Below are positions 14,938 through 25,905 of a DNA stretch of 47,756 nucleotides, in pieces. This DNA is from Candidatus Methanoperedens sp. BLZ2 (GTDB lineage: Archaea; Halobacteriota; Methanosarcinia; Methanosarcinales; Methanoperedenaceae), in NCBI RefSeq assembly GCF_002487355.1, contig NZ_NTMG01000029.1, forward strand, positions 1 to 47,756, in the 5' to 3' direction. Positions within the stretch are counted from its first letter, which is position 1. Every line of letters begins with the position of its first letter. Made by a program: the position numbers and the translations under genes. Under the pieces are notes generated by a model, which had not been told where the DNA came from, did no database searches, and worked only from the letters and a program-made list of their open reading frames with translations.

Positions 14938-15039
14938 GTGGAGCAAATTGAAAAGACGCTATTATTAGATATCCAGATAACAGTGTTAACTTTAGCAGTA
15001 CGAGCAGGATGTTATGGACAAAATGAGGTAATTTTATGA
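14938..15039 (+). CDS. Candidate 33-residue small ORF heading the isoprenoid operon
   Basis: A short frame with a strong AAAGGAG ribosome site (14920-14926). It reads MEQIEKTLLLDIQITVLTLA then VRAGCYGQNEVIL from a GTG at 14938, or 35 residues from a TTG at 14932, which has the better 5-base spacing. Its TGA (15037-15039) overlaps the ATG of the polyprenyl-synthase gene (15036) in an ATGA junction, the classical sign of translational coupling. The peptide is hydrophobic in the middle with one cysteine (Cys25) near the end. It may be a leader peptide, a small membrane protein or a precursor peptide. It could also be chance, since the frame is short and lacks an ATG. Confidence 0.4.
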   Translation: MEQIEKTLLLDIQITVLTLAVRAGCYGQNEVIL

Positions 15040-15899
15040 TTGAAGCCCTCATAAACCAGTGTCCAGGCATCTCTGACTTACATTTTAAAAAAGATGATTT
15101 AATAATAAAAGCTCTATACCGGAGAGTTAAAATGGTGAATGAATCGATACCAAGATTTCTTTCCATAACTCCTCCGGATGAAATGTATCTTGCTATGCAC
15201 CATCTTATGGATGCCGATAGAAAAAGGTTCTGTCCCTCAACATTGTTAGTGGCAGCAGAAGCCGTAGGGGGGGAACCTGAAGATGTAATCCCTGCTGCTC
15301 TGGCTATAGAATTGATTCATAATGTCTGTCTGATCCATAATGACATCATGGACAATGCCGACATGCGGAAGGGATATCTCACTGTTAATAAAATTTGGGG
15401 TGCATCTGATGGGATTCTCGCAGGGGATGCCCTGTATTCAAAAGCTTTTGAAATTCTTTCATATGCAAAAAGCGGACCATCACAGATCATCGAAAGTATG
15501 CAAATACTATCCAGGACCTATATGGATCTGTGTGAGGGGCAATGGATGGATATCGATTTTCAAAAAAGAAATGATGTGACAGAGAGTGAATATTTACAGA
15601 TGGCGGAGAAAAAAACCGCTGTTCTTTTTGCGGCTGGATTAAAAATAGGTGCTGTATTATCAAATGCAAGCAGGGAAGAAGCGCAGGCATTATGGGACTT
15701 TGGCTGTCTCGCAGGTGTTGGTTTCCAGATATATGATGATATCAAAATATTGAAGGAAACAGGCTCAATTGATCATGCCCTGAACGTGGCTTCCAGTTTT
15801 ATAGATGCTGGTAAATCCGCATTGAAAATACTGCCGGATTCTGAAGCGAAAAAGATACTTATCGGTTTTGCAGATTATATGGTTGAGCAAAAATATTAG
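15036..15899 (+). CDS. Polyprenyl diphosphate synthase homologue with altered aspartate motifs
   Basis: A 287-residue all-helical isoprenyl-diphosphate-synthase family protein, slightly short for the family (about 320). The first aspartate-rich region reads HNDIMDNADMRKG (residues 101-113), so the first Asp of DDxxD is Asn102. The second reads FQIYDDIKI (230-238), keeping two Asp but with Ile238 in place of the third acidic residue. Other family parts are intact: AGDALYSKAFEIL and the Lys before TAVLFAAG. Active enzymes join IPP to an allylic diphosphate with Mg bound by these Asp. Activity here may be altered, or the protein may work with a second subunit. GAGGTAA precedes the ATG, and the start overlaps the small ORF. 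Next to a reductase and UbiA, a membrane-anchor tail is the likely product. Confidence 0.9.
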   Translation: MIEALINQCPGISDLHFKKDDLIIKALYRRVKMVNESIPRFLSITPPDEMYLAMHHLMDADRKRFCPSTLLVAAEAVGGEPEDVIPAALAIELIHNVCLIHNDIMDNADMRKGYLTVNKIWGASDGILAGDALYSKAFEILSYAKSGPSQIIESMQILSRTYMDLCEGQWMDIDFQKRNDVTESEYLQMAEKKTAVLFAAGLKIGAVLSNASREEAQALWDFGCLAGVGFQIYDDIKILKETGSIDHALNVASSFIDAGKSALKILPDSEAKKILIGFADYMVEQKY

Positions 15900-15912: not shown

Positions 15913-17136
15913 ATGAAATATGATACAATTGTGGTAGGGGCTGGTCCTGCGGGAAGTTTTACAGCTTTGAAATTGGCAGAACAGGGTCTTAATGTTCTGC
16001 TTATCGATAAGCAGAGCAGGGACAGGTATAAACCCTGCGGAGGTGGAATGTGCACACGATGCCTGAAATTGGTCGGAGAGCCACCCGACGAAGTTACTGA
16101 GAGAAAGGTTACAAAAGAAACACTTTATACAAAGAACAAGAGCTTTTCAGTTTCGTGTTCTGAATCAATTGGGAAAAAAGGTATAGTAGTATATCGGAAT
16201 AAATTTGATTCGTGGTTAATTGACAGGGCAGAAGCAAAAGGTGTTGAGATCTTAGAAAAGAGCAAAGTAGATTCTATTAAAATAAATGGCAAAGTGACAG
16301 TAAAGTTAGAGGGAGGAAAGGAATTTGAATCTAATCTTCTTGTCGGTGCCTGGGGAGCTTCTTCTTATCTTCATAAGTTTATTAATGTTGCTCCACCAAA
16401 ATATTATACATCTATTTCTCAGGAGTTAAAACTGCCACCAGGTCTGGTTGAAGAGAGATTTAATGAACCTGAGATTTTCTGGGATGGGAATATTACTACC
16501 AATGGCTATTTCTGGATTTTTCCAAGAAAAGAAGGGGTTAATATTGGTTATATGGAACAAACAACAAAAGCGAAAGGAATTAAAGAAAAATTCATTAAAA
16601 TAATTCAAAATCATCCAATAATATCTCAAAAATTAAAAGGATCAGAAGAAATGAAGATAAATGGTAGATCTTTGTTTGGACACCGGATTGCAGAGAATTA
16701 TCTGGATAGGTTTCATGGGGATCATTTTGTGCTCGTAGGAGAAGCAGGTGGCCTGATTAATTCCCTGACAGGAGAAGGTATTTACTATGCATTGAAGTCA
16801 GCAGAGTTAGCAGCATCTATCATTAGTGAAGGGGAATATTCCGAGAAAAGCCTGGGGCGCTATACAGAACTTTGTTATTCTGAATTGATAGATAATGACC
16901 TGAAATATTCTGCCAAAATGGCAAAAATGATGTTTGGTCACAAACCGCAATTTCACGACCGCATCATGGATGCCATGCTGGAATTGACCGAGGAAAATGG
17001 TGAGATAAAAAAAATAATGGAAAGTATGTTTTCCAGCGTTGAGTACGGCCAGATTTATAATCCTCTGATGTCGAAAAAAGGGCTCTTGATTCGCAAACTG
17101 GGCCTGCTTGGCGTAATGAAAATGATATCGAGGTAG
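15913..17136 (+). CDS. Geranylgeranyl-reductase-family FAD oxidoreductase
   Basis: A 407-residue flavoprotein of the geranylgeranyl reductase/PHBH type. FAD-binding motifs are VVGAGPAGSF at about 7-16, the KPCGGGMC segment near 50 that forms part of the active site in archaeal relatives, and VGEAGGLINSLTGEGIYYAL near 285-305. Such enzymes saturate double bonds in polyprenyl chains of lipids or quinones using reduced ferredoxin or F420. The ATG at 15913 has a GAGGTGAT ribosome site; an earlier in-frame ATG at 15868 lies inside the polyprenyl-synthase gene and is unlikely. The gene directly downstream encodes a ferredoxin-like fusion that could donate its electrons. Confidence 0.9.
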   Translation: MKYDTIVVGAGPAGSFTALKLAEQGLNVLLIDKQSRDRYKPCGGGMCTRCLKLVGEPPDEVTERKVTKETLYTKNKSFSVSCSESIGKKGIVVYRNKFDSWLIDRAEAKGVEILEKSKVDSIKINGKVTVKLEGGKEFESNLLVGAWGASSYLHKFINVAPPKYYTSISQELKLPPGLVEERFNEPEIFWDGNITTNGYFWIFPRKEGVNIGYMEQTTKAKGIKEKFIKIIQNHPIISQKLKGSEEMKINGRSLFGHRIAENYLDRFHGDHFVLVGEAGGLINSLTGEGIYYALKSAELAASIISEGEYSEKSLGRYTELCYSELIDNDLKYSAKMAKMMFGHKPQFHDRIMDAMLELTEENGEIKKIMESMFSSVEYGQIYNPLMSKKGLLIRKLGLLGVMKMISR

Positions 17137-17151
17137 GAAGGATAGATAGTT

Positions 17152-18378
17152 ATGGTAGGAATTGTAATGTGTCAGTGTCGGGGAAGAGGGTTTTTCAATC
17201 AGGCAGACTTTGGTAAGCTCAGTACATATATAAGGGAGAATCATGATGTCAAATACATAAGTGAGCATCCTTATCTATGCAGCCCAACACTTGGCTTACC
17301 TTTTTTGAATTCTTTACTAAAAAATGACAAGATTGTAACACTCGCTTGTTACCAGAGATCGCAAAAATGGCTTTTTAAGTCATGTGAGGGAGAGCTGGTC
17401 CATGTTAACATGAGGGATCTGGGTCTGAGTGAAGTTATTACTGAGATGAAAAATATATTGCCTTCAAAAAATGGGGAAAATACCGAAGAAATTCATGAAT
17501 GGTTTCCAGTAATTGATTATGACAGATGTACTGGATGCGGCAGCTGCTTTGACTTCTGCATTTTTGGTGTTTTTGATATCCAGGAGGATCAGGGTGGAGT
17601 AAAAGTTGCAAACCCATATAATTGCAAAGATAACTGTCCTGCATGTGCAAGAGATTGCCCGGAAGAAGCTATAATCTTTGCAAAATCTACGGAAAAATGG
17701 GTTTCTGGTGGAGAAGGAGAGGGTTCTTCAGAAGCAGCAGTATTTACAGTAAAGGATTTTGAATATCCTGGCAGAGCCAGGAAAGTATCAAACATACCTG
17801 ATCTGGATGACAGGCAAAAAATACGTGAACTTATTTACACCAATAAAGAGAGCATTGATTGCATAGATGCAACCGGAGCAAAAATACTAAACCACCTGGG
17901 CCTGCCTTCAAAGTATCTTGATTTCACTATAGCGGAGTTAAAGACCCAGATTTTGAGTGAAGACTTCAGTAAAATTCCTTATAATAAAAGAGTTTTAATA
18001 GTACCTCATTGCCTTCGCGACTCTGAAAAATGCCGGAATCACTATGAACCACTGGAAACCGGTTTACAGCTTATCTGCGAGGATTGCGGAAGTGAGAATT
18101 GTAAGATTAATCCTATTATTAAGGTTGCCAGGGAGTTGGGTTATACCATCTATATCTCAGAGGGAGCAACCGTAGTGTTAAGAATGCTCAAAGAACGAAA
18201 AGCCAATGCATTTTTCGCTGTTGCATGCCTGGATTCGTTGATGAAAGCCATTCCAATTGTAGATTCTTTGAAAATACCAAGCGGAGGTTTACCTCTGCTA
18301 AAAGGAGGATGTAAAAATACGGATATTGAGATAGATACCGTAATCAAGCGGATCAGACTGAATAAGGTGATATCATGA
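17152..18378 (+). CDS. HdrA-N-like / 2[4Fe-4S] ferredoxin / DUF116 fusion protein
   Basis: A 408-residue iron-sulfur protein with three parts. Residues 1-90 (GIVMCQCRGR, then HPYLCSPTLGLPFLNSLL, then VTLACYQRS and VHVNMRDLG) resemble the N-terminal domain of heterodisulfide reductase subunit A, with its cysteines. Residues about 118-185 hold two cluster motifs, CTGCGSCFDFC and CKDNCPACARDCP. The C-terminal 150 residues match DUF116: VPHCLRDSEKC, CEDCGSENCKI, GYTIYISEGATVV, FFAVACLDSLMKA and LLKGGCKNTDI. No membrane segment is present. It sits 15 bases after the reductase gene, with an AGGAAGG-type ribosome site, and its stop overlaps the next start (ATGA). It may pass electrons to the flavoprotein or build part of the product. 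The three-part combination is unfamiliar to me. Confidence 0.82.
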   Translation: MVGIVMCQCRGRGFFNQADFGKLSTYIRENHDVKYISEHPYLCSPTLGLPFLNSLLKNDKIVTLACYQRSQKWLFKSCEGELVHVNMRDLGLSEVITEMKNILPSKNGENTEEIHEWFPVIDYDRCTGCGSCFDFCIFGVFDIQEDQGGVKVANPYNCKDNCPACARDCPEEAIIFAKSTEKWVSGGEGEGSSEAAVFTVKDFEYPGRARKVSNIPDLDDRQKIRELIYTNKESIDCIDATGAKILNHLGLPSKYLDFTIAELKTQILSEDFSKIPYNKRVLIVPHCLRDSEKCRNHYEPLETGLQLICEDCGSENCKINPIIKVARELGYTIYISEGATVVLRMLKERKANAFFAVACLDSLMKAIPIVDSLKIPSGGLPLLKGGCKNTDIEIDTVIKRIRLNKVIS

Positions 18379-19301
18379 ATAGCTTATGCATAGCTACGGT
18401 TAAAGAACTATCACCGGAGCTTCAGGAGGAATTGGATGGCACAGGAAACTTATTTAGCAAACTCCAGCAAAAAGATGGTGGATTTGTAGGAAGGTTGGGC
18501 GAAACTACTTCGGACCTATATTATTCATTCTTTGCAATTGAAACATTCAAAATGATTGAAAAAGAAAAAATGTTAGATCATAGTGGCCTTAAAGATTTTT
18601 TATTTTCATGTTATAATAAAAATGGTGGTTTTGGATATAGAAAGGACGCATATCCTGATATGATTCATACTTTCTGCGGAATCGGAACATCCATAGCAAC
18701 TGGTAACTTCGATGAACTTGATAGAGAAAAAATCAGTGAATTTATCCTGTCTTTACAATCCGCAGAGGGAGGTTTCCTGAAAGATGGAAAATCAAGCCAA
18801 CCCACTGCATACTCGACATTTTATGGGATTTTCTCTTTGAACCTGCTAGATAAGTCTGATTTACTGGATAAAGAATTTCTCAATAAAACCTCTGAATTTT
18901 TGATCAACCTGAAAACACCGGAAGGAGGTTTTAAAGCATCGTATAAATCTTTGCAACCAAATCTTGTTGAGACGGCATCGGCATTGTTTACATTATATTT
19001 ACTGGATTATTTAAATCGTATTGATGAAAAACAAGTTAAAGATTTTGTATTAAATTGCCAGTCAAACGCAGGTTTCAAAAATCATTTAAGATCTAAAGTA
19101 ACTGACCTGGCGTCATTTTTTTGTGCGGTTAATTCTCTCACACTGCTGGAATCTTTAAATACAATTTCTGCAAACAAAGTTACAGATAGTATTCTCAATT
19201 TCAAGACTCCCTGGGGTGGATTTGGCAATATGGGCTCTCCGGATATTGAATATACATATTATGCTATCTATACCATGATTCTTCTTTCAAGAGAGAGGTG
19301 A
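18375..19301 (+). CDS. Protein-prenyltransferase-beta-like alpha/alpha toroid protein
   Basis: A 308-residue cytoplasmic repeat protein. Six turns have the prenyltransferase/squalene-oxidase repeat sign: LQQKDGGF, CYNKNGGFG, LQSAEGGF, LKTPEGGF, CQSNAGF and FKTPWGGFG. Two stretches resemble the zinc site of protein prenyltransferase beta subunits: SDLYYSFFAIE (Asp47, with Tyr49 where Cys is a zinc ligand) and DMIHTFCGIG (His98). Their 51-residue spacing is close to that in Rab geranylgeranyl transferase. So two of three zinc ligands may be kept, and catalysis is uncertain. No alpha subunit is nearby. The start overlaps the previous stop (ATGA), and the stop overlaps the next ATG by one base. 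It could bind or attach a prenyl chain. Confidence 0.8.
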   Translation: MNSLCIATVKELSPELQEELDGTGNLFSKLQQKDGGFVGRLGETTSDLYYSFFAIETFKMIEKEKMLDHSGLKDFLFSCYNKNGGFGYRKDAYPDMIHTFCGIGTSIATGNFDELDREKISEFILSLQSAEGGFLKDGKSSQPTAYSTFYGIFSLNLLDKSDLLDKEFLNKTSEFLINLKTPEGGFKASYKSLQPNLVETASALFTLYLLDYLNRIDEKQVKDFVLNCQSNAGFKNHLRSKVTDLASFFCAVNSLTLLESLNTISANKVTDSILNFKTPWGGFGNMGSPDIEYTYYAIYTMILLSRER

Positions 19302-19591
19302 TGAAAATTAGAGAAATATATGTTAGATTTTTTGGAATAATTTCCTCTGAGACAGGTCATAAGGAAATTAAAATTAGCACGGATGCAAAAAATATCGGTG
19401 AACTGATTGTTGAAGTTTGTAATAAGTATGATAACTTAAAAAAGAGGCTATTGTCTTCAGAAGATTCAGTCCTCAACAGGCATGTCAGATGTTATGTGAA
19501 TGGAATGGATATTCGACTTATCAGAGAATACAAGACCAGGTTAATGGATGGAGACAAAATATTATTTTTGGTTTCATTCCAGGGAGGTTAA
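19301..19591 (+). CDS. MoaD/ThiS-like ubiquitin-fold protein with C-terminal Gly-Gly
   Basis: A 96-residue beta-grasp protein: MKIREIYVRFFGIISSETGH at the start, a central helix (NIGELIVEVCNKYDNLKKRL), the VNGMDI turn, and the closing LMDGDKILFLVSFQGG. The last two residues are Gly-Gly, the feature of sulfur carriers (MoaD, ThiS, CysO) and of archaeal SAMPs, which are adenylated and made into thiocarboxylates or joined to lysines. No E1-like activating enzyme or JAMM protease is in the window. The ATG at 19301 has a GAGAGGTG site; the GTG at 19298 is an alternative. It is followed 3 bases later by the pseudo-threonine-synthase gene, a pairing that recalls CysO and its PLP-dependent cysteine synthase. 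Confidence 0.85.
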   Translation: MKIREIYVRFFGIISSETGHKEIKISTDAKNIGELIVEVCNKYDNLKKRLLSSEDSVLNRHVRCYVNGMDIRLIREYKTRLMDGDKILFLVSFQGG

Positions 19592-19594
19592 AAA

Positions 19595-20917
19595 ATGGGA
19601 ATATTAAAATGCAGGGATTGTGGAACTTTGTATCCTGAGGCTATGATAACATCCTGTAGTGAGTGTTATGGCCCTGTTGATACATGCATAGAAGACATTG
19701 ATAGGAGCATCAAAAGCAAGATAGAGAGCCGTTATCCAAGCATGTGGCGGTATCTGGAGTTCCTGCCGGTCAATGATAAAAGAGCTATGGATCTAAACGA
19801 TGGATGGACTCCTTTGCTCAGAAGTAATACACTTGGAGAGGTCACAGGCATAAAAAATCTTCATTTAAAATTCGAAGGTACTAATCCAACGCAATCTTAT
19901 GAAGACCGTTCCGTAAGTATCTCCATAAATAAAGCGATTGAATTTAATAGTACTGCAATAGGATGCGCTTCGACACATTATATTGCGGATTCCGTAGCAG
20001 CGCATGCAGCAAGAACCGGACTAAAATCTTATATCTTTGTTCCGGATAATACACATCCTGAAATAATATCTCCTTTATTATCGTATGGAGCGCAAGTATT
20101 GAAAGTTTATAAACAAGAAGGAGATATAGACTGCCAATGCCATGGGAATGATCCGGCTACATGTACGCTGGTAACAAGGATCGCTGAAATACCAGAATTA
20201 AGTTTGCCGATTGTTGACCTGGATTTGCGCAGTTATTTCAATTCCGGTTATAAGACTTTGAGCTATGAGATAGCAGAGCAACTTGGATGGATATCACCAG
20301 ATAACATTGTGATACCGGAAGGCTCCGGCTCTCTCACTTATAATATGTATTTAGGTTTTAAGGAACTGTACGAATCAGGACTGATAGAAGACTTACCTGA
20401 ATTTTTTATAGTTCAATCCAGCGGTTGTGCTCCAATTGTGGATGCTTTGATCCATAAAAAAGAAATACCAACCCCATTAAGGAATCCTGTGACCCTGTGC
20501 GAAAATCTTCGGGTTGGTGATCCGGCCGATGGTCTTTATGCCCTCAGGGCAATTAAATACGGTGGGTATGGTATTGCAGTTGAGGATAAAGAAGGAATAG
20601 AATATGCGGAATTGATCGCAAAGAAAGAAGGAATATTACCGGATTATAGCGGAGGATTGGCGGTTGCCGGACTGGTCAGGCTTTGCGAGGCTGGCAAAAT
20701 AAGCCCGGCTGACAGCACGGTTGTTGTACTGCCGGCTTCAGGTATTAAAAAAAGAGATAACTATCAGTTATCTCCTGCTTTACAGGTACCGAGGATTTCA
20801 TCAAATATCGCAGATTTACAATCATATTTAGAAACTGAAAAGAAAAATATGGTACGAACGGCAATATTTAAGAAAGCGGGGGAAGCTGCCGAGCCACCCG
20901 CTCTTTTAAGAATATAA
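19595..20917 (+). CDS. Threonine-synthase-fold protein lacking the PLP lysine
   Basis: A 440-residue member of the fold-II PLP family, closest in look to archaeal threonine synthases. An N-terminal zinc ribbon (CRDCG and CSEC) and the usual domain order are kept. The conserved segment NPTGSFKDR, whose Lys binds PLP, reads NPTQSYEDR here: Glu103 replaces the Lys (codon gaa, clear in the DNA). The phosphate or substrate loop, normally STGNTAAS, reads STHYIADS, and the PLP phosphate loop is altered to PEGSGSLTYN. The frame is otherwise intact and well conserved, so this is not a decaying gene. It is likely a protein with a new, non-PLP function, perhaps binding the Gly-Gly protein encoded 3 bases upstream. 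True threonine synthase must lie elsewhere. Confidence 0.85.
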   Translation: MGILKCRDCGTLYPEAMITSCSECYGPVDTCIEDIDRSIKSKIESRYPSMWRYLEFLPVNDKRAMDLNDGWTPLLRSNTLGEVTGIKNLHLKFEGTNPTQSYEDRSVSISINKAIEFNSTAIGCASTHYIADSVAAHAARTGLKSYIFVPDNTHPEIISPLLSYGAQVLKVYKQEGDIDCQCHGNDPATCTLVTRIAEIPELSLPIVDLDLRSYFNSGYKTLSYEIAEQLGWISPDNIVIPEGSGSLTYNMYLGFKELYESGLIEDLPEFFIVQSSGCAPIVDALIHKKEIPTPLRNPVTLCENLRVGDPADGLYALRAIKYGGYGIAVEDKEGIEYAELIAKKEGILPDYSGGLAVAGLVRLCEAGKISPADSTVVVLPASGIKKRDNYQLSPALQVPRISSNIADLQSYLETEKKNMVRTAIFKKAGEAAEPPALLRI

Positions 20918-20958
20918 AACATAAAAATAAATAAGAAAAATAAAAAGGAGAGATAAAA

Positions 20959-22062
20959 ATGGAAAAAATAGTAAAACTTGGAATAGTAGGTGGTTTCCTT
21001 GGTGCAGGTAAGACCAGCACTATAATAGAAATAGGTAAAAAACTGGTAACCGATTACGGCAAGCGTGTAGCAATAATCACGAATGACCAGGGAGAAGAAC
21101 TGGTGGATACCAAAATAGTCAAGGATTACGGCTTTGAGGTTGGTGAAGTTCTTGGTGGATGTTTCTGCTGTAAGTTCCCTGATTTTATGGCATCATCTGA
21201 GGATATTCTCAAAAAAACCAATCCTGACATAATTCTTGCAGAACCAGTCGGGAGCTGCACGGATATCCCGGCAACGCTGCATATGCCGATAAGAAAATTT
21301 TATAAAAATACTTTTAAAATAGCGCCGCATATCGTACTTGTGGATGCCCGGCGCATACTAAATATGTCTTCTGAGATGGATCTGGTATCGCCCGACACAT
21401 CCACAGGATATCTATTCTCGCATCAGATACAGGAAGCTGAGGTTCTGGCAGTCAACAAAATAGATCTTGTGTCCCCTGATCAAATAGATCAGATAAAAGA
21501 AGTATTAAAGAAACTCAACAGCAGAGCGGAAATAATGTTAATCTCAGCTGCGAACGGAACAGGGATGGATGCGCTGGCCGGGAAAATATTGAATGACGAG
21601 TATAAAAGTTATTATTATCCGCATGTTGACTACAAAGTTTACGGCAGCGCTGAGGCAGAAATGGGATGGTTAAACGGGGTATGGAAAGTAGATAGCAAGC
21701 AGGATTTCAAAGTCAAGGAATTCATCAGGGATATTCTGATAACTGCAGCGACAGATATAAAACAAAAAAATGGGGATATAGGTCATGTTAAGATATATTT
21801 CTCAAACAAGAAAAATTTTACAAAAGCCAGCTTTGTTTCATTTGGTCAGGATGTGTGCTTCACGGGTTTAATTCCAGATAAAACAGGATCAGGAGAAATG
21901 GCAATAAATGCTCGCGTTGCAATAGGTCACAAAGAGCTGAAACAATCTATTTTAGATTCGCTGGAAATAGTTTCCTCAAAATATGATACGGAACTTAATA
22001 CACTGAAAATAGAAAGTTTCAGTCCACCGCAACCCGAACCACATCATCGGATTCTGGGATGA
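20959..22062 (+). CDS. CobW/COG0523-type G3E GTPase (metallochaperone-like)
   Basis: A 367-residue P-loop GTPase of the G3E group. Motifs: Walker A GGFLGAGKTS at residues 11-20, the metal-binding GGCFCCKF (CxCC) near 66-72, EPVGSCTD, and the guanine motif NKID. COG0523 members insert or deliver Zn, Co or Fe to client proteins. The ribosome site AAGGAGAGATAAAA precedes the ATG, after a 41-base gap. The C-terminal 120 residues (WKVDSKQDF, GHVKIYFSNK, INARVAIGH) are conserved-looking but unassigned, and the tail PHHRILG is histidine-rich. Within this operon, a client could be the zinc-ribbon pseudo-synthase or the toroid. The stop overlaps the aquaporin start (ATGA). Confidence 0.88.
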   Translation: MEKIVKLGIVGGFLGAGKTSTIIEIGKKLVTDYGKRVAIITNDQGEELVDTKIVKDYGFEVGEVLGGCFCCKFPDFMASSEDILKKTNPDIILAEPVGSCTDIPATLHMPIRKFYKNTFKIAPHIVLVDARRILNMSSEMDLVSPDTSTGYLFSHQIQEAEVLAVNKIDLVSPDQIDQIKEVLKKLNSRAEIMLISAANGTGMDALAGKILNDEYKSYYYPHVDYKVYGSAEAEMGWLNGVWKVDSKQDFKVKEFIRDILITAATDIKQKNGDIGHVKIYFSNKKNFTKASFVSFGQDVCFTGLIPDKTGSGEMAINARVAIGHKELKQSILDSLEIVSSKYDTELNTLKIESFSPPQPEPHHRILG

Positions 22063-22724
22063 CCATGTTCAGGAAAATCGCGGCAGAATTTATCGGAACA
22101 TTTGCTCTTGTGTTTGCCGGAACAGGAGCTATAATTGACGATTCATTAACCGGGAAAATCGGGCAAATTGGCATAGCCATGTCTTTTGGATTAGTAGTAG
22201 CTGTTATGATATATTCCCTGGGACATATATCGAAAGCCCATTTTAATCCTGCTGTGACTATTGGGTTTGCTTCAGTCGGGAAATTTGAAAAAAAACATGT
22301 TCTTCCTTATATTGCTGCTCAAATTGGAGGTGCAATTCTTGCAAGCGCTTTACTTTTTATGATATTCGGTAATATCGGGAACCTTGGCGCTACCCTGCCC
22401 AGAGGTTCATGGATGCAGTCGTTTATTTTAGAAGTTGTAATGACCTTTTTCCTGATGCTGGTGATAATATCAGTCGCTACGGATTCTAGGGTTAAACCTG
22501 AAATATCAGGTATTGCAATAGGTGGAGTCGTAGCCCTTGATGCACTTTTCGGGGGTGCAATCTCCGGTGCGTCAATGAATCCGGCCAGATCTTTAGGACC
22601 AGCGATAATTGGTGGAATATTCGATAATCAATGGATATATTTGATAGCCCCGGTCATAGGTTCTCTAATCGCTGTCGTGATTTATGAGTATATTCGAACT
22701 GAAAAAAAAATTGCAGGTGGTTAA
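22059..22724 (+). CDS. MIP-family aquaporin/glyceroporin
   Basis: A 221-residue six-helix channel with both signature loops, HFNPAVTIG and SMNPARSLGP. The Arg after the second NPA forms the selectivity filter. The N-terminus is MTMFRKIAAEFIGTFALVFA (a second ATG two codons in). These channels pass water, glycerol or other small neutral solutes; some family members pass arsenous acid, which deserves mention because ArsA-like and ArsD-like genes follow 2 kb later. The substrate cannot be read from the sequence. The start overlaps the GTPase stop, and the stop is one base before the next ATG, so it belongs to the same transcript. Confidence 0.93.
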   Translation: MTMFRKIAAEFIGTFALVFAGTGAIIDDSLTGKIGQIGIAMSFGLVVAVMIYSLGHISKAHFNPAVTIGFASVGKFEKKHVLPYIAAQIGGAILASALLFMIFGNIGNLGATLPRGSWMQSFILEVVMTFFLMLVIISVATDSRVKPEISGIAIGGVVALDALFGGAISGASMNPARSLGPAIIGGIFDNQWIYLIAPVIGSLIAVVIYEYIRTEKKIAGG

Positions 22725-24580: not shown

Positions 24581-24665
24581 AATCTTAGTTTGTCAACCGG
24601 TCTTATATATACTCCTACATGTATGGGTAAAAACCTATCTTTCTTTGCTGCTTGATAGCAGTATC
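24581..24665. promoter_or_regulatory. Intergenic promoter region between Bat regulator and ArsA-like operon
   Basis: 85 bases lie between the divergent regulator and the ATPase gene. CTTATATATACTCC (24601-24614) is a good TATA element for the plus-strand operon, followed by TCCTACATGTATGG with the palindrome ACATGT. The ArsA-like start has no strong ribosome site, so the transcript may be short-leadered. The regulator probably binds here. Confidence 0.5.
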
Positions 24666-25574
24666 ATGACAATGCAAGATTTGATCAATAACAAGAAGTT
24701 CCTTTTCTTTGGTGGAAAAGGCGGCGTAGGAAAGACAACAATGGCATCATCGACCGCGGTCTGGCTGGCGGATCAGGGTTACGATACGTTGGTCGTGGCT
24801 ACAGACCCTACAGTGAGTCTATCGGCGATCTTTGAACAACAGATCGGGGAAACTGAAGTAACAAGGATAAAAGAGGTCAAGAATCTCTGTGGACTCAATA
24901 TAAATCCCAAGAAAGCATCCGGTGTTTTCCAGGCAAGGTTGAATCACATGGTAGACGAGCTCACAGGCATGTTTGGAAAGGAAGTAATGAGCACACCCTG
25001 CGCAGAAGAGATGGCAGCTTTTGATCAATTTGTAAGCTATCTGAATTCAGACGAACATGATATTATAGTATTTGATACCGCTCCAACAGGTCATACACTA
25101 AGGGAGCTGTCAATGCCTTTTGATTGGGCGAATTATATTTCCAGGCAGCTTCAAAATAGATTGGTGCTGGGCAAATTATTGAATATCAAAGTGGGGGGAG
25201 ATACACTGGATAATTTAAACATAGAACAAAAAAGATATGAAAATGCAATAAAAATACTGGCAGATACAAAAACAACTTTATTTACATTAGTATTGCTGGC
25301 TGAAAACCTCCCCATTGAAGAAACTGCAAGAGCGATCGAGAATTTGAGCCAGTTAAAAATAAATGTTCCGGCTTTAATAATAAACGAAATAATCCCCACC
25401 GAGGTGCTAAAAGGAAATTGGTTTTTAGAAAAACGAAGATCAACGCAGGACAGATACCTGGATATCATAGGTAAAAGATTTAAAGATTTATACAAAAAAG
25501 AAGTGCCTCTCTTTGAAACCGATATTACGGGAATAGAAAATATGAGAAAAATTGGAAAAATTCTGTATGGGTGA
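24666..25574 (+). CDS. ArsA/Get3-like ATPase
   Basis: A 302-residue P-loop ATPase. Deviant Walker A GGKGGVGKTT (residues 16-25), DPTVSLSAIF at switch I and FDTAPTGHTLREL at switch II mark the ArsA/Get3 family. Members deliver arsenite to an ArsB pump or insert tail-anchored membrane proteins. The CxxC zinc-dimer motif of Get3 was not found, and the arsenite cysteines are not clear, so the cargo is open. The frame runs upstream to 24468 inside the divergent regulator; ATG at 24666 (or 24672) is the sensible start. The stop overlaps the next start by 8 bases, and the next protein is ArsD-like, the known ArsA partner. Confidence 0.88.
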   Translation: MTMQDLINNKKFLFFGGKGGVGKTTMASSTAVWLADQGYDTLVVATDPTVSLSAIFEQQIGETEVTRIKEVKNLCGLNINPKKASGVFQARLNHMVDELTGMFGKEVMSTPCAEEMAAFDQFVSYLNSDEHDIIVFDTAPTGHTLRELSMPFDWANYISRQLQNRLVLGKLLNIKVGGDTLDNLNIEQKRYENAIKILADTKTTLFTLVLLAENLPIEETARAIENLSQLKINVPALIINEIIPTEVLKGNWFLEKRRSTQDRYLDIIGKRFKDLYKKEVPLFETDITGIENMRKIGKILYG

Positions 25575-25905
25575 TATTGTGGAACATACAATTATACTAT
25601 TTCAGATACCGGGCTGCTGTGCACTGACCAGAGGGCTTGCTAACAGGAATTACTCCAGGATATTAAAAAAGATATGCAAAGATGCCGGTATTGCGTTCAA
25701 TGATGTTGATCCGATGACAGTACAGGATATTCTGATGAAATTAGTGCAGGAACAGCGACCGGATGTATGGCAAAAAGTGGAACAAAACGGTTTGTCTGTA
25801 ATAATGGATTCATTTCCTGTTGTTGTCATGGACGGGAAAATTATCTCATTGGGTAAATTTAATGAGGACGACATAAGAAAACAAATATTCAGTGTGGCTA
25901 AATGA
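25567..25905 (+). CDS. ArsD-like thioredoxin-fold protein
   Basis: A 112-residue protein whose plan resembles the arsenite chaperone ArsD: a beta strand running into a vicinal cysteine pair (IILFQIPGCCALTRG), and a closing strand-turn-strand-helix DSFPVVVMDGKIISLGKFNE like LPLLLLDGE in ArsD. The third metal-binding cysteine of ArsD is missing. ArsD hands arsenite to ArsA, and here the gene overlaps the ArsA-like gene by 8 bases. A general thioredoxin-fold carrier is an alternative. GTG at 25579 is another possible start. The stop overlaps the next start. Confidence 0.7.
   Translation: MGDIVEHTIILFQIPGCCALTRGLANRNYSRILKKICKDAGIAFNDVDPMTVQDILMKLVQEQRPDVWQKVEQNGLSVIMDSFPVVVMDGKIISLGKFNEDDIRKQIFSVAK

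Follow-up and report, generated by a model that had tools for sequence, protein, structure and literature searches.

A threonine-synthase-fold protein lacking the pyridoxal phosphate lysine beside a CysO-like Gly-Gly protein in Candidatus Methanoperedens sp. BLZ2: an apparent diverged copy of a threonine synthase/CysO module

The gene pair

The stretch of DNA analysed here (the window) is the whole contig NZ_NTMG01000029.1 (C4; 47,756 bases) of the 3.74-Mb genome of Candidatus Methanoperedens sp. BLZ2 (G000), in which a small protein ending in Gly-Gly (P0001) is encoded directly ahead of a protein with the fold of threonine synthase (TS) that lacks the lysine for pyridoxal phosphate (PLP) (P0002):

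19301..19591, + strand: P0001, CysO/MoaD-like beta-grasp protein, 96 amino acids (aa), C-terminus VSFQGG (ThiS match; orthologues in 3 of 185 genomes)
19595..20917, + strand: P0002, PLP-less threonine-synthase-fold protein (pseudo-TS), 440 aa (PALP and TS-structure matches; close orthologues in 3 of 185 genomes)

The 185 genomes are those of an order-level survey, 30 of them from a single genus. The arrangement had been pointed out in an initial annotation and is confirmed: the gene of P0001 starts with ATG (with the GTG at 19298 as alternative start the protein would be one residue longer) and ends with LVSFQGG-TAA, leaving exactly the reported gap of 3 bases to the ATG of P0002 at 19595. P0001 matched the Pfam family ThiS (PF02597; 9.8e-9, 36.1 bits against a cut-off of 22.5) with the profile alignment reaching the final Gly-Gly, and its closest structures in PDB were M. 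tuberculosis CysO (3dwg_C; 6.7e-6) and then 4n6e_B, which we take to be the Amycolatopsis BexX/CysO. Both the designation as a sulfur-carrier-like protein and the comparison with CysO, whose partner PLP enzyme shares its fold class with P0002, were thus apt. P0001 also shares the beta-grasp fold and the C-terminal Gly-Gly with SAMP1 and the archaeal MoaD family, while scoring below both curated cut-offs (SAMP1 equivalog: 40.8 bits, 2.5e-10, cut-off 60; moaD_arch: 48.1 bits, cut-off 49.5) and far below that of the moaD equivalog (12.5 bits, cut-off 66.15).

P0002 matched the Pfam family PALP at 6.7e-50, and its nearest structures were threonine synthases (2zsj; 1.5e-41), although it remained below the curated TS models (160.2 against 167.1 bits for TIGR00260 thrC; 201.7 against 303 for NF006050). 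A cysteate synthase (TIGR03844) was ruled out, the score being 50.2 bits against a cut-off of 324.9.

Loss of the PLP site in P0002

The residues of P0002 were compared in an alignment with 42 lysine-bearing relatives, for which an open reading frame lay inside the loci examined (52 genomes carry such a gene). Four features were located on this basis:

19610..19666, + strand: zinc-ribbon cysteines C6, C9, C21 and C24 of P0002, kept
19895..19909, + strand: SYEDR, the former PLP-lysine motif (E103); lysine in 42/42 lysine-type relatives, glutamate in 3/3 pseudo-TS
19970..19984, + strand: STHYI (H128 and Y129 replacing Gly-Asn of STGN)
20132..20164, + strand: insert CQCHGNDPATC (C180, C182, H183, C190), a possible metal or persulfide site

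The fold and the zinc ribbon are predicted to be those of threonine synthase. The lysine motif, SFKDR in the relatives, has become SYEDR in P0002 and its two orthologues, which bears out the loss of the PLP site proposed initially, and further contacts are altered in the pseudo-TS group as well (EPAGG to DYSGG and TGNGL to PASGI). The substitutions cluster at the cofactor (K103E, G128H, N129Y, E350D, P351Y, T380P, G381A); the PLP-binding roles of these residues are those that we assume from the fold-type-II literature. Of 223 columns invariant across the 42 relatives, 109 are retained in P0002, and since the phosphate loop (S244, G245, L247) is retained, a non-covalent phosphate ligand is possible. 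The columns of C180, C182 and C190 are missing in all 42 relatives and invariant in the three pseudo-TS proteins, in which H183 is likewise invariant.

Lysine-bearing TS-CysO pairs and the descent of the window pair

The same genome encodes a lysine-bearing version of the pair on contig C47 (35454-37032, locus L041), where a TS (P0003; 41% identity to P0002) is followed by a carrier of 91 aa ending in PAVSGG (P0004). This type of TS was found in 52 of the 185 genomes, and in 47 of them a CysO-type gene lies directly downstream in the same orientation, the match edges being 14-81 bases apart. The five genomes without such a neighbour are G001, G002, G003, G060 and G073 (the TS matches of the last two being partial), and in ten genomes a CysO-type gene was present while this TS was not detected at the threshold applied. 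The co-occurrence gave p = 3e-28 in Fisher's exact test, with genomes treated as independent and kinship ignored. Outside the order, the pair was present in three genomes and in the actinomycete Nonomuraea, the latter with SFKDR and a carrier ending in PAVAGG. Because G000 has an ordinary TS on contig C36 (thrC 373 bits, cut-off 167), P0003 need not be a threonine-making enzyme.

The tail PAVSGG was present in 42 of 43 complete CysO-type open reading frames by our own count. Residues past Gly-Gly (GGNFRG, GGSL) occur in CysO-type proteins of G041 (L033, L074) and, outside the order, of G373 (L100); these would need trimming ahead of sulfur loading.

In the synthase tree P0002 fell into the TS-with-CysO clade, apart from the types represented by C36, C28 and L039 (support 100/99), and the best-scoring relatives of P0001 among the loci were of the CysO type, ahead of the MoaD-like protein of contig C3. 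Because a lysine-bearing version occurs in the same genome and is widespread, the pairing of TS and carrier looks ancestral and the window pair looks like a derived, diverged copy of the TS/CysO module. Judged from the alignment, the synthase half of this copy is now a predicted pseudoenzyme that has gained the Cys-x-Cys-His...Cys insert, and the carrier tail has changed from PAVSGG to VSFQGG. The window pair is therefore a changed version of a known type of module. The initial interpretation was right in outline as to the carrier-like protein, the pairing and the loss of PLP, while being incomplete: it had missed the lysine-bearing pair in the same genome and, with it, the ancestral pairing.

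Conservation and selection

Close orthologues of P0001, P0002 and the CobW-family protein P0005, encoded next to them, were present in exactly the same three of the 185 genomes (G000, G045 and G066), with no other genome of the order at high identity, and the three genes are contiguous in each. The ratios of nonsynonymous to synonymous substitution rates (dN/dS) among the three genomes were 0.126-0.137 for the pseudo-TS, 0.115-0.145 for P0001 and 0.067-0.095 for CobW, and neither the pseudo-TS nor the P0001 genes had internal stops. The missing catalytic lysine and the long branch of P0002 might by themselves suggest an artefact or a decaying pseudogene, but with identical changes in three separate genomes, a dN/dS of 0.12-0.14 and uninterrupted frames the probability of this is practically negligible. 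Since the PLP-site changes are conserved in the three genomes under purifying selection, they are neither sequencing errors nor signs of decay, and decay of the P0002 gene is refuted by the dN/dS values and the intact frames.

A search of genome contigs with P0002 gave three loci, of which only L038 was close (the same contig as in G066). No relative of P0002 or P0005 was found in viral contigs, and the 133 plasmid records matching P0002 were all below 60% identity. In a phylum-wide search with the pseudo-TS alignment (E <= 1e-85), four of 392 genomes responded: G000 itself and three with lysine-bearing TS genes followed by a CysO-type gene.

The terminal Gly-Gly of P0001

The end of the P0001 gene has a second use:

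19581..19588, + strand: AGGGAGGT, Gly-Gly codons doubling as the Shine-Dalgarno sequence of P0002; identical in G045 and G066

Thus, the GGA-GGT-TAA end of the P0001 gene also serves translation of the next gene. Only two of the 45 window genes listed end in Gly-Gly, P0001 and the aquaporin gene (22059-22724), and in the latter the Gly-Gly codons form a Shine-Dalgarno-like AGGTGG directly ahead of an ATG. Because both double as Shine-Dalgarno-like strings, a terminal Gly-Gly by itself is weak evidence. However, the alignment with the ThiS profile extends to the final residue, VSFQGG is invariant in all three window-type carriers, and the CysO-type relatives keep Gly-Gly although their gene order is reversed (TS gene upstream of the carrier); on these grounds the terminal Gly-Gly of P0001 is, by sequence comparison, homologous to that of sulfur carriers.

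Operon context and the syntenic locus in two further genomes

The pair is embedded in a longer row of genes:

15036..15899, + strand: polyprenyl synthetase with damaged catalytic motifs
15916..17136, + strand: flavoprotein of the geranylgeranyl reductase family, same operon; no counterpart found in the G066 contig
17152..18378, + strand: P0006, 4Fe-4S and DUF116 protein, same operon
18375..19301, + strand: P0007, prenyltransferase-type alpha-alpha toroid protein, its stop overlapping the start of P0001; no counterpart found in the G066 contig
20959..22062, + strand: P0005, CobW-family GTPase with a GCFCC motif; its close orthologues are limited to the three genomes with the pair
22059..22724, + strand: aquaporin-family channel, same operon

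Relatives of P0006 at about 40-43% identity were found in two more genomes, G042 and G067, whose right flank is orthologous to that of the window (helix-turn-helix protein 84-85%, ArsA-type protein 83%, toroid protein 60%). G042 also has an open reading frame that resembles multihaem cytochromes. Between the DUF116 and toroid genes of these genomes, the toroid-CysO-pseudoTS-CobW block is replaced by a gene for a GcvH-like protein (PF01597; 5.7e-22); further upstream are genes for an aquaporin and a DGC-domain protein:

L110 8596-9063, - strand (G042) and L111 2968-3429, + strand (G067): GcvH-like gene, syntenic to window positions 18375-22062

The locus thus holds a CysO-like pair in some genomes and a lipoyl-type carrier in others, which supports a carrier function and is not proof of sulfur. 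A comparable carrier is LbpA of Hdr-like sulfur oxidation, most representatives of which carry typical cysteines according to PMC6067878.

Proposed function and alternatives

In the CysM/CysO system the carrier tail enters the active site of the synthase. As a tentative reading, somewhat short of an even chance, the window pair is proposed to be a diverged TS/CysO module in which P0002 acts as a PLP-free docking and sulfur hand-off partner of the carrier. P0001 would still be activated at its Gly-Gly by one of two ThiF-family E1-like proteins (contigs C14 and C49; the genome also has two JAB-domain proteins, all above the cut-off) and would receive sulfur there, its tail docking in the remodelled former active site of P0002. 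The latter would hold the sulfur and pass it on instead of adding it to a PLP aminoacrylate, possibly through the new Cys-x-Cys-His...Cys site, or the sulfur might go straight to a metal or redox protein of the operon. The initial annotation had concluded from the lack of PLP that the sulfur or conjugate needs another destination; this can only be inferred, candidate recipients being the 4Fe-4S/DUF116 protein and the CobW GTPase encoded next door. The joint change of the carrier tail and the pocket fits retained docking. A more far-reaching version is doubtful: a threonine synthase would have turned into a sulfur hand-off platform that kept tail docking and exchanged the cofactor centre for a Cys/His site, with CobW and the 4Fe-4S/DUF116 protein helping to supply a metal or redox centre with the sulfur and the lipoyl carrier of G042 and G067 doing the equivalent step.

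Several observations weigh against this proposal and the descent behind it. The identity between P0001 and P0004 is low (26%; 9e-4, weak), the CysO tree does not place P0001, and the branch of P0002 is very long (5.63), so that its exact position within the clade is not fixed. The joint change of tail and pocket could also be drift following loss of the original partner, and the Cys insert may be merely structural. AlphaFold models of P0002 (predicted local distance difference test score 39.4, with two relatives) and P0001 (54.2, with one relative) were too poor to use and lend no support to the geometry of the pocket and the Cys site; both the binding of P0001 to P0002 and the thiocarboxylate on P0001 are inferred from sequence. 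The N-terminus of the DUF116 protein had an insignificant likeness to HdrA (1.7 bits). The GcvH-like protein of G042 and G067 is without the typical LbpA cysteines (PMC6067878); because of this a sulfur role of the locus is not established, and the lipoyl sulfur-oxidation reading of it is weak.

The alternatives depart from the proposed hand-off at different points. P0002, or P0001 and P0002 together, could be a regulatory decoy that attaches to the canonical TS, or to the CysO-type carrier of the latter, and so modulates their sulfur pathway while handling no sulfur. The canonical pair does exist in the same genome, much of the TS shell is retained, and a pseudoenzyme of fold type II is known to act on a partner enzyme (PMC12727527), but an identity of just 41% to the canonical TS makes a mixed oligomer unlikely and P0002 sits in a separate operon with its own diverged carrier, which leaves a decoy unlikely. 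Less probable still would be a new PLP-free enzyme, in which the retained S244-G245-L247 loop binds a phosphorylated substrate, E103 or its neighbours catalyse and the carrier thiocarboxylate serves as nucleophile. Upstream in the operon, the genes for the polyprenyl synthetase and the geranylgeranyl-reductase-like protein would point to a prenyl phosphate; however, no substrate is known, the synthetase motifs are damaged in both G000 and G045 and the reductase is missing from the G066 contig.

That P0001 is a ubiquitin-like modifier of the SAMP type and P0002 its target or adaptor is improbable: the constant pairing of carrier and TS genes better fits sulfur transfer to a partner and the SAMP1 score is below the cut-off, despite the match itself and the presence of E1-like and JAB proteins. 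A molybdopterin-synthase small subunit located here by chance is very improbable. The ThiS/MoaD fold and an aldehyde ferredoxin oxidoreductase gene 9 kb away would agree with it, against which stand the low moaD equivalog score, the restriction of orthologues to three genomes and another MoaD-like gene (43.7 bits) on contig C3 directly before a moeA-like gene (a name read from the translation, no search having been made). An action of P0001 in molybdenum cofactor synthesis only was rejected from the low moaD score and the separate MoaD-like gene.

Relation to known systems

The closest known relative of the pair is threonine synthase (TIGR00260 thrC) together with the CysO-type pair of C47, with which P0002 shares the fold, the zinc ribbon, the pairing with a Gly-Gly beta-grasp protein and the nearest place in the tree; the differences are the absent PLP lysine, scores under all TS model cut-offs, the reversed gene order and the Cys insert. 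With M. tuberculosis CysO/CysM it has in common the carrier adjoining a fold-type-II protein, although P0002 is TS-like rather than CysM-like and no PLP aminoacrylate is possible. The carrier fold is also common to P0001 and the CysO-like protein of 4n6e, whose partner is presumably a thiosugar synthase of a different fold, unlike P0002. According to PMC3227635, CysM adds the sulfur of CysO-COSH to the aminoacrylate and Mec+ then releases cysteine; the first of these steps P0002 should be incapable of. The TSB-like protein of eudicots is a paralogue of a fold-type-II PLP enzyme that has lost catalysis and acts via its partner, differing from P0002 in being TrpB-derived, activating TSA and having no sulfur carrier (PMC12727527).

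Neither a paper on this pair nor a pseudoenzyme of this fold paired with a sulfur carrier was found in the open-licence part of PMC. Two publications on Methanoperedens contain the term 'threonine synthase': in PMC4683180 it appears just in a cited title, on the evolution of cysteate synthase from threonine synthase, and the other is PMC6286981, in the main text of which homocysteine, cysteine synthase and MoaD are absent as whole words. Fold-type-II pseudoenzymes are rarely described. Should docking of the carrier persist, the two proteins would be a case of docking uncoupled from PLP chemistry in a sulfur-carrier system, and one genome would offer a working and a PLP-less version as a natural control. 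The lysine-bearing TS-CysO pair deserves notice too: it is widespread, and the name threonine synthase is easily given to it in error though an ordinary TS (C36) is present as well.

Further observations on the neighbouring genes

The polyprenyl synthetase has orthologues in G045 (L045 13552-14496) and G066 (L046 4385-5410). The motifs are GGKRLRP and LIHDDIID in G066, ADRKRFCP and LIHNDIMD in G000 and intermediate in G045 (LIHNDIIN); in G000 the stretch past QIYDD is deleted (287 versus 341 aa). Despite the damaged motifs, dN/dS was 0.14-0.24. The DUF116/4Fe-4S protein of G066 was 73% identical at a synonymous divergence (dS) of about 1.3, compared with about 0.4 for its operon neighbours, a possible gene replacement; its two flanking genes, for the reductase and the toroid protein, are missing in the G066 contig. 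Finally, an ArsA/GET3-type ATPase followed by a small CC-motif protein, for which no match was found in Pfam, NCBIfam or PDB, is encoded at 24657-25905 with the aquaporin nearby, an arrangement that recalls metalloid handling, and arsenic handling by these three was considered.

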